Below, piece by piece: positions 1 through 32,171 of a stretch of DNA of 32,171 bases. The notes beneath the pieces were generated by a model. It was not told the origin of the DNA. It did not search any database and saw only the letters and a program-made list of their open reading frames with translations. Location: contig WFNB01000080.1 in NCBI GenBank assembly GCA_015488755.1, forward strand, positions 1 to 32,171, written 5' to 3'. This DNA is from Gammaproteobacteria bacterium. GTDB taxonomy: Bacteria > Pseudomonadota > Gammaproteobacteria > GRL18. Numbering within the stretch: position 1 is the stretch's first letter; the number at the start of each line of letters is the position of its first letter. Both the position numbers and the translations under genes were made by a program.

Positions 1-25
1 AGCGTCAGATGTGTATAAGAGACAG
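1..25 (+). other. Nextera/Tn5 adapter remnant (artefact)
   Basis: Bases 7-25 read AGATGTGTATAAGAGACAG, the 19-bp Tn5 mosaic end used in Nextera libraries. The preceding AGCGTC matches the adjoining bases of the Nextera read-1 transposase adapter. This is untrimmed synthetic sequence at a contig end, so genomic sequence begins at about base 26. Confidence 0.95.
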
Positions 26-59
26 CAATGGTATTATAGAATAACATAAAATTTCTTCA

Positions 60-320
60 TTATTTATCATCTAAAATATTTTCCTGCTTTCTGGCTTTTT
101 TTAACATCTTTGATAAGGCTTTAAATTCTTTACACAGATTATAAGTTTCTTTGCTGCTTTTTCTTTTTTTGGATTCTTTTTTAATGTTTTTTTTCAGCTC
201 TGCTTTCTTATTCTCTAAAGAAAGTACCAGTTTTGAAAGTTTCTCACGCTTCTTTTTCTGCTTTTTTTTAGACTGATCAAAGAACTCATCCAAACTATTT
301 AGCAATTTCCTAATCCCCAT
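60..320 (-). CDS. Small lysine-rich coiled-coil protein, unknown function
   Basis: I do not recognise the family. From the preferred ATG at 320 the product has 86 residues, 26 of them lysine. It has no signal peptide or membrane segment. Two strongly basic helical stretches (about residues 17-30 and 38-57) alternate with leucine-containing heptad-like spacing, suggesting a soluble helical or coiled-coil protein that may bind nucleic acid, acidic lipid or polyphosphate (inference only). An ATG at 326 is also in frame, but AGGAG abuts it directly and sits 6 nt before the ATG at 320, so 320 is the better start. The start lies inside the end of the Na/Pi cotransporter gene (stop 310-312), so the two are probably translationally coupled. 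No terminator is visible before the contig end. Confidence 0.6.
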   Translation of the reverse strand: MGIRKLLNSLDEFFDQSKKKQKKKREKLSKLVLSLENKKAELKKNIKKESKKRKSSKETYNLCKEFKALSKMLKKARKQENILDDK

Positions 321-2076
321 AATCATCTCCTAATTCTGCGATTAATTTATCTTTTACCCAAAGAACTGAAGCAACATTGAGTAATTTTTTAGAAATACTA
401 TGAGTAAATCCGAGATCATTAATTAATGATGAAGCCATTTTAGAATCAATTTTATCGTCTCTAATAAGCGTATCAATATTTTTATTTAAGGTAATTTCAT
501 TTTCATTGGCATTATTCTTAAGTACCTGAAGACGAGTCATAACATCAGTGGCATCGGCTTCTTTATCATATCTTATGTTTTCAATCGTGCGCATAATCGT
601 AACTAATTGCTTACGTAACTCATTATATTGGTGGATCATGAACCAGTTTTTGCTTTTTGTGAAATAATTTAGGTTTTTTTGTAATTCACGAATATCTTTT
701 ACCATTTCAATAATATTGCGCACAGCTAATTTTAATTCATAGACTCGGTTATTGCCTTCTTCATCCATATACGCTTGGGACATAGAGGAATAGCGAAGGA
801 TCTCACTATAAAGGTTTTTAATATCTTTTTTATAAATCTCATTCACATTAACGTCAAATGTATGGTTTGATTGTTCAACTAAATCACCTAATTCACGATT
901 AGAAAACAACTCTTTACGATGAAGGTTCATTGCATGAATAATAGCCTCTAATGACTTATCATAGAGGTGAATACTTTCTTTTCTAATGGCCTCTAATGCC
1001 GATACGGGAATTTCCATGACTTCATTGGTTAAATATTTAGGCCGTCCTCTGCCCTTATGTTTCTGACTAAAGAGTGTCTCTAAAAAGCGAACTAATGGTT
1101 TGATAAAAGGAGAGACCAAAAGCACCCCAATAATATTAAAGATAGTATGGAATAAAGCCAGTTTCATGGCATTATCAGATTCTGAAATTGACAGTAATGG
1201 TGCTAAAATATCTACTAACTCTTTTAGTTGATAAAGAAATACGACCGCCACCAATGCAGTGATAATATTAAAAATAAGATGTGCAACAGCCAAACGTTTA
1301 CCATTTTTATTTGAAGCTAACGAGCCAAGAATAGCCGTTATTGTAGTGCCTATATTGGCACCAATAGCTAAAGATAGGGCGTTAATGTAATCAATTTGGC
1401 CTGTGGCCAGTGCCGTTATAATAATCGCCATGGTCGCACTACTGGACTGGATAATAACCGTAGCAATAACACCAAACAAAATATAAACAAAAACACCAAG
1501 ATAACCTTCCATAGCATATTCAGCAAGATTAATGCCTTCTTTGAGTGTTTCAAAACCTTCTTTCATGTAAGAAATACCAAGAAAGATAAAGCCCAAACCA
1601 ATGAGCACACTGCCTAAGCCTTTATATGAATTTTGTTTAGAAAACTGCATCACAACCCCAAAAATCAACATAGGTAAGGCATATTGAGCAATTTTTATTT
1701 TTAAACCAAGGGAAGAGACCAGCCATGCAGTCGCTGTCGTACCAATATTGGAACCAAACACAATACCAATAGCAGAAGATAAACTGATCAGTTCAGCAGA
1801 TAAAAAAGAGATAACAATAACAGAGACTAATGATGAGCTTTGTACGATAGCCGTCGCTAAAAAACCGGTGCTAATGGCTTTAGGTGTTGTGCTAGTAAAT
1901 CTTTTAAGCACAGTTTCTAATGCCCCTCCACTGAATAACTTAAAGCCATTTTCCATATAATGCATACCAATTAAAAAAATGGCAATGCCAGCAATGATGG
2001 CCTTAGCATTATTATTAGCAATAACAAACCAAGCAAATAGTAAAAAAAGTAACGGTGATATGATTCGTTTCAGCAT
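310..2076 (-). CDS. Na/Pi cotransporter family protein with PhoU-like C-terminal domain
   Basis: Inner-membrane sodium-coupled phosphate transporter of the NptA/PNaS family, 588 residues. Its two inverted halves each carry the QSSS signature (residues 79-82 and 200-203), each followed by a G-S/A-N-I-G-T-T motif (108-114 and 229-235). The membrane region covers roughly residues 1-335, starting with a hydrophobic N-terminus. From about 340 to the end the protein is charged and helical, like the PhoU domains fused to bacterial members such as YjbB. The family moves inorganic phosphate with Na+; direction and physiological substrate cannot be read from sequence. The ATG at 2076 has only a distant purine-rich AGGA upstream. 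Its 3' end overlaps the small lysine-rich gene, so the two probably form an operon. Confidence 0.93.
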   Translation of the reverse strand: MLKRIISPLLFLLFAWFVIANNNAKAIIAGIAIFLIGMHYMENGFKLFSGGALETVLKRFTSTTPKAISTGFLATAIVQSSSLVSVIVISFLSAELISLSSAIGIVFGSNIGTTATAWLVSSLGLKIKIAQYALPMLIFGVVMQFSKQNSYKGLGSVLIGLGFIFLGISYMKEGFETLKEGINLAEYAMEGYLGVFVYILFGVIATVIIQSSSATMAIIITALATGQIDYINALSLAIGANIGTTITAILGSLASNKNGKRLAVAHLIFNIITALVAVVFLYQLKELVDILAPLLSISESDNAMKLALFHTIFNIIGVLLVSPFIKPLVRFLETLFSQKHKGRGRPKYLTNEVMEIPVSALEAIRKESIHLYDKSLEAIIHAMNLHRKELFSNRELGDLVEQSNHTFDVNVNEIYKKDIKNLYSEILRYSSMSQAYMDEEGNNRVYELKLAVRNIIEMVKDIRELQKNLNYFTKSKNWFMIHQYNELRKQLVTIMRTIENIRYDKEADATDVMTRLQVLKNNANENEITLNKNIDTLIRDDKIDSKMASSLINDLGFTHSISKKLLNVASVLWVKDKLIAELGDDYGD

Positions 2077-31943: not shown

Positions 31944-32171
31944 TGTGGCTATACTTAACCGGACACACAACTTAAAATATCCAAAAGAGAAAGAGTGTGC
32001 CTAAAAATGAATGAACAAGCAAAAAAGCCAAATAAAACTTATATATCAGAATTTAAAGAATCGGCAGTCAAATTAGCCATCGAGACCGATCAAGCCATCT
32101 CCCAGACGGCAAGGGAGTTGGATGTTAATGTGTAAGCGATCAATCAACGATTCTATTTCCCCAATCTAGCC
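31944..32171 (+). mobile_element. Left end of an IS3-like insertion sequence, truncated
   Basis: The stretch TGTGGCTATACTTAACCGG at 31944-31962, continuing ACACA, resembles terminal sequence of IS3-group elements as I recall them. It is followed by an orfA-like reading frame at 32007 in the expected place and direction. The element runs into the window end; no orfB or right terminus is visible. Repeats commonly break assemblies at such points. Confidence 0.6.
32007..32135 (+). pseudogene. Truncated IS3-family transposase OrfA
   Basis: Only 42 codons remain. Y-I-S-E-F-K-E-S-A-V-K-L-A-I-E and I-S-Q-T-A-R-E-L-D-V-N form the first helices of the OrfA helix-turn-helix (residues 12-26 and 31-41). 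OrfA proteins usually run to about 90-100 residues and continue after V-N with a tryptophan-containing helix. Here V-N-V is followed at once by TAA, and the next 36 bases do not resume the expected reading in any frame. It is therefore broken by mutation, internal deletion or misassembly near the contig end. Confidence 0.65.

Follow-up and report, generated by a model that had tools for sequence, protein, structure and literature searches.

Do the outermost bases of a draft-genome contig belong to the organism, or were they left there by the sequencing library? The question arises at the left edge of contig C80, from a draft genome of 3,525,292 bases in 122 contigs. The window analysed here is this entire contig (C80:1–32171; 32,171 bases), which makes base 1 a real contig edge. 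It opens with the hexamer AGCGTC (bases 1–6, plus strand), after which bases 7–25, on the same strand, are the 19-bp Tn5 mosaic end, found with no mismatch in a pattern search of the window. No other window position matches the mosaic end at up to three mismatches, and shuffled sequences average 0.01 such matches. In engineered Tn5 the mosaic end serves as the recognition end; at the C80 edge it is oriented toward the genomic part of the contig. We take the hexamer to be the part of the Nextera Read-1 (i5-side) oligonucleotide that adjoins the mosaic end. Window bases 1–25 agree at 25 of 25 positions with the 3′-terminal stretch of the Illumina Nextera Read-1 adapter; that adapter is 33 bases long, and C80 keeps just the last 25.

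The full exact mosaic end occurs once in the source genome, on C80, and a search of 56 other genomes, taken as relatives, found none. Under equal base frequencies, chance alone would place a given 25-mer in this genome about 6e-9 times. Among 121 contig starts (that of C122 was left out), C80 is the only one to open with more than three bases of adapter, and a TruSeq 13-mer is absent from the source genome.

Public genome contigs carry the same 25-mer in at least 119 stretches, with at least 128 matches. It lies no more than 70 bases from a contig end in 122 of the 128 matches listed, the other six being 77 to 474 bases in. Outside the 25-mer, 126 of the 128 matches listed show no disagreement with the adapter, over comparisons of at most eight bases (four matches had none there); among listed copies with at least eight outer bases, 108 of 110 go on as adapter. 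C80 is like these draft-genome remnants in having the identical 25-mer at a contig edge. It differs from most of them in extent, since the 122 listed remnants near ends have 0 to 46 further adapter bases (four have none) and C80 has none. A contig-edge position combined with continuation into adapter is the signature of adapter remnants and not of a natural element. The same remnant was also seen at bases 25–49 of L002 and L006, public records titled Streptomyces novaecaesareae NRRL B-1267 and Streptomyces catenulae NRRL B-2342, so it is not a feature of metagenome bins alone. According to the SKESA authors, this 19-mer ranked first in frequency among suspect k-mers in 5 of 5 and in 199 of 219 read sets after trimming (PMC6172800).

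A shorter trace is found elsewhere in the assembly. The mosaic end's final 12 bases have one other match in the genome, C28:7532–7543 on the minus strand, and the final 14 bases of C28 (7545 bases long) are mosaic-end sequence running outward from the insert. About 0.4 chance 12-mers would be expected in the genome, though not at the very end of a contig, and so we take the end of C28 as a probable second, shorter adapter remnant. We found no native continuation for C28: the 18 native bases just before its remnant are unique in the genome, and comparison with 121 contig starts gave no overlap of at least 10 bases. The last 10 bases of the mosaic end occur at seven places, which are C80, C28 and five with 1500 bases on either side; the last 16 bases, at up to two mismatches, match one further place (C65:6756–6771), internal to a 22,200-base contig, and the reversed control of the 16-base pattern gives three matches in the genome. 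Two remnants of at least 12 bases were found in the genome, on C80 and C28. The C28 remnant implies that adapter traces were left by the library in general. Their scarcity counts somewhat against an adapter origin: the fault would be rare here, while in some other assemblies many contigs are affected.

If bases 1–25 are foreign, the native sequence that should precede base 26 may lie elsewhere in the assembly, and contig C9 provides a candidate. The first genuine bases of the window (26–42, read on the minus strand) are, as an exact reverse complement, bases 1–17 of C9, with different DNA thereafter, and this 17-mer occurs at only two places in the genome, C80 and C9. With bases 1–25 kept, the ends of C80 and C9 show no overlap; once they are dropped, the overlap stops exactly at the adapter boundary. 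Beyond those 17 bases, C9 and the adapter coincide at 4 of 25 positions, roughly what unrelated DNA would give; the native DNA at the C9 start thus differs from the adapter and lacks adapter sequence. Under equal base frequencies, about 2e-6 matches of 17 bases would be expected among all pairs of the 244 contig ends, an expectation that AT-rich DNA would raise, by our estimate, roughly tenfold. Among the 121 contig starts, 19 start-to-start overlaps were found, of which 10 were dropped as uninformative, involving four contig starts that match themselves in reverse, and nine were kept. The eight besides C9–C80 range from 10 to 110 bases, so that a length of 17 is not unusual in this assembly; it is nonetheless short, and this weighs against the link.

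Gene order in relatives gives a second line of evidence. Beside the contig start lies an 88-aa gene (60–326, minus strand), followed by a Na+/Pi cotransporter gene (310–2076, minus strand), identified by its Pfam match (PF02690) and used as the anchor for comparison. The 88-aa protein is lysine-rich and has no Pfam match, and its gene here overlaps the end of the cotransporter gene. Counting the source genome, 33 of 57 genomes carry relatives of the cotransporter, and gene order was judged on the 11 best cotransporter loci from other genomes, taken with their flanks (L124–L134). A homologue of the 88-aa gene adjoins the cotransporter in all 11, marking it as the cotransporter's genuine neighbour. 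The first gene of C9 encodes a 254-aa solute-binding protein (SBP_bac_3, PF00497), and the second a protein starting MSEHNVKLIWTKETESF, which is putatively OsmC-like and is here called MSEHN-type. A gene of the MSEHN type lies downstream in the same direction in 10 of the 11 relatives' loci, with a solute-binding gene between it and the 88-aa gene in six of the 11; the one locus with neither C9-type gene is L127, where about 500 bases remain to its contig end. In L124 and L129 the solute-binding protein gene follows the 88-aa gene. The L124 protein has two strong matches in the source genome, C14:90067–90813 and C9:58–801, both 65% identical, the latter sitting at the very start of C9.

The cluster recurs on contig C14 (L145, C14:88500–92500, at about 1290–2775); in this second copy the solute-binding and MSEHN-type genes appear intact and the cotransporter has shrunk to a 54-codon match; a similar 54-codon cotransporter match is present in the relative G020. 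The C14 solute-binding match has a slightly better E-value than that of C9 at equal identity (65%). Since the gene that leads to C9 also matches C14, the link to C9 comes down to the 17-base overlap together with gene order, a further point against it. C14 was considered as the true neighbour of C80 and rejected, no copy of window bases 26–325 having been found on it and the 17-base overlap being with C9 only. Apart from C80 itself, a search of the genome with bases 26–325 gave just one weak match, of 46 bases, in C103; blastn of bases 26–2100 against a plasmid collection gave no match. Taken together, the 17-base overlap and the gene order in relatives indicate that C80, once reversed, very probably adjoins C9 on the chromosome, that the sequence from base 26 onward is genuine and that only bases 1–25 are foreign.

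We therefore hold it as nearly certain that bases 1–25 are an untrimmed piece of the Nextera Read-1 transposase adapter, probably brought in by read-through and kept as a dead-end extension of C80, whose true continuation is very probably C9. The sequence of events would be as follows. During library preparation, Tn5 transposase would have joined the Read-1 adapter to a genomic fragment ending at window base 26. At least one read from the opposite side of a short insert would then have run past the fragment into the adapter, and its tail would have been left untrimmed; the assembler would have retained 25 adapter bases as an extension of C80, with the true continuation split off as C9. On the minus strand the contig end reads ...CCATTG and then CTGTCTCTTATACACATCTGACGCT, which, given its orientation and the design of such libraries, would fit a second read running through a short insert into the i5-side adapter. 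The adapter branch may have helped to break the contig, or the adapter may only sit at a low-coverage break. The original prediction of an untrimmed Nextera/Tn5 adapter, with the 19-bp mosaic end and six adjoining adapter bases exact, is borne out by the complete agreement of the 25 bases, their contig-edge position, the C28 remnant, the absence from the 56 other genomes and the native alternative at C9.

Several other explanations were weighed. The one that survives best, while still very improbable, is a real insertion of a Tn5-type (mosaic-end) element, as in a transposon mutant, with contigs breaking inside the insert and C80 and C28 representing its two sides. It would account for the exact mosaic end on C80 and for the 14-base part that ends C28. 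What is present, however, is one full end and one 14-base partial end in place of two. The six outer bases, moreover, are those of the Nextera oligonucleotide, and 108 of the 110 listed public copies with at least eight outer bases go on as that oligonucleotide. The two sides of a single Tn5 insertion share a 9-bp target duplication, and the genomic flanks of the C80 and C28 remnants, compared by eye, share none. C9, finally, bears the uninterrupted native continuation of C80. A variant that allows for this last point, in which the insertion was real in a minority of the sequenced cells and C9 derives from cells without it, seems to us less probable again.

As remote as that variant is a contig chimeric past the adapter, with base 26 onward derived from elsewhere. 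Adapters can mark chimeric library molecules, and the original prediction had accordingly warned that the nearby junction might be chimeric. That warning holds for the joint between bases 25 and 26, which is artificial, and is not supported beyond it: bases 26–42 are repeated at the C9 start, the 88-aa gene stands beside the cotransporter in every relative's locus examined, and the genes of C9 are the ones expected next. Any chimera is confined to the 25/26 joint itself. Least probable of all is native sequence that equals the adapter by coincidence, which has nothing in its favour beyond presence in the record and is countered by the chance expectation given above, by the absence of the mosaic end from the 56 other genomes searched and by the different DNA at the same place in C9.

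The adapter at the C80 start is thus a routine assembly artefact without biological meaning, and the practical consequences are a matter of record hygiene only: bases 1–25 of C80 should be trimmed, as had been advised, and so should the last 14 bases of C28. Where primers, k-mer indexes or repeat searches draw on contig ends, they can take in this remnant, which is found at contig edges in many public draft and metagenome-assembled genomes. For this draft, C80 and C9 may be entered as probable neighbours.

At its right end (31980–32171) the contig breaks off in an ordinary repeat. An interrupted reading frame there, putatively transposase-like by eye, shares 81% identity with part of C11, and the final 40 bases of the window match a repeat end on six other contigs with different flanks (39–40 of 40 bases). 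This end looks like one insertion sequence inside another.
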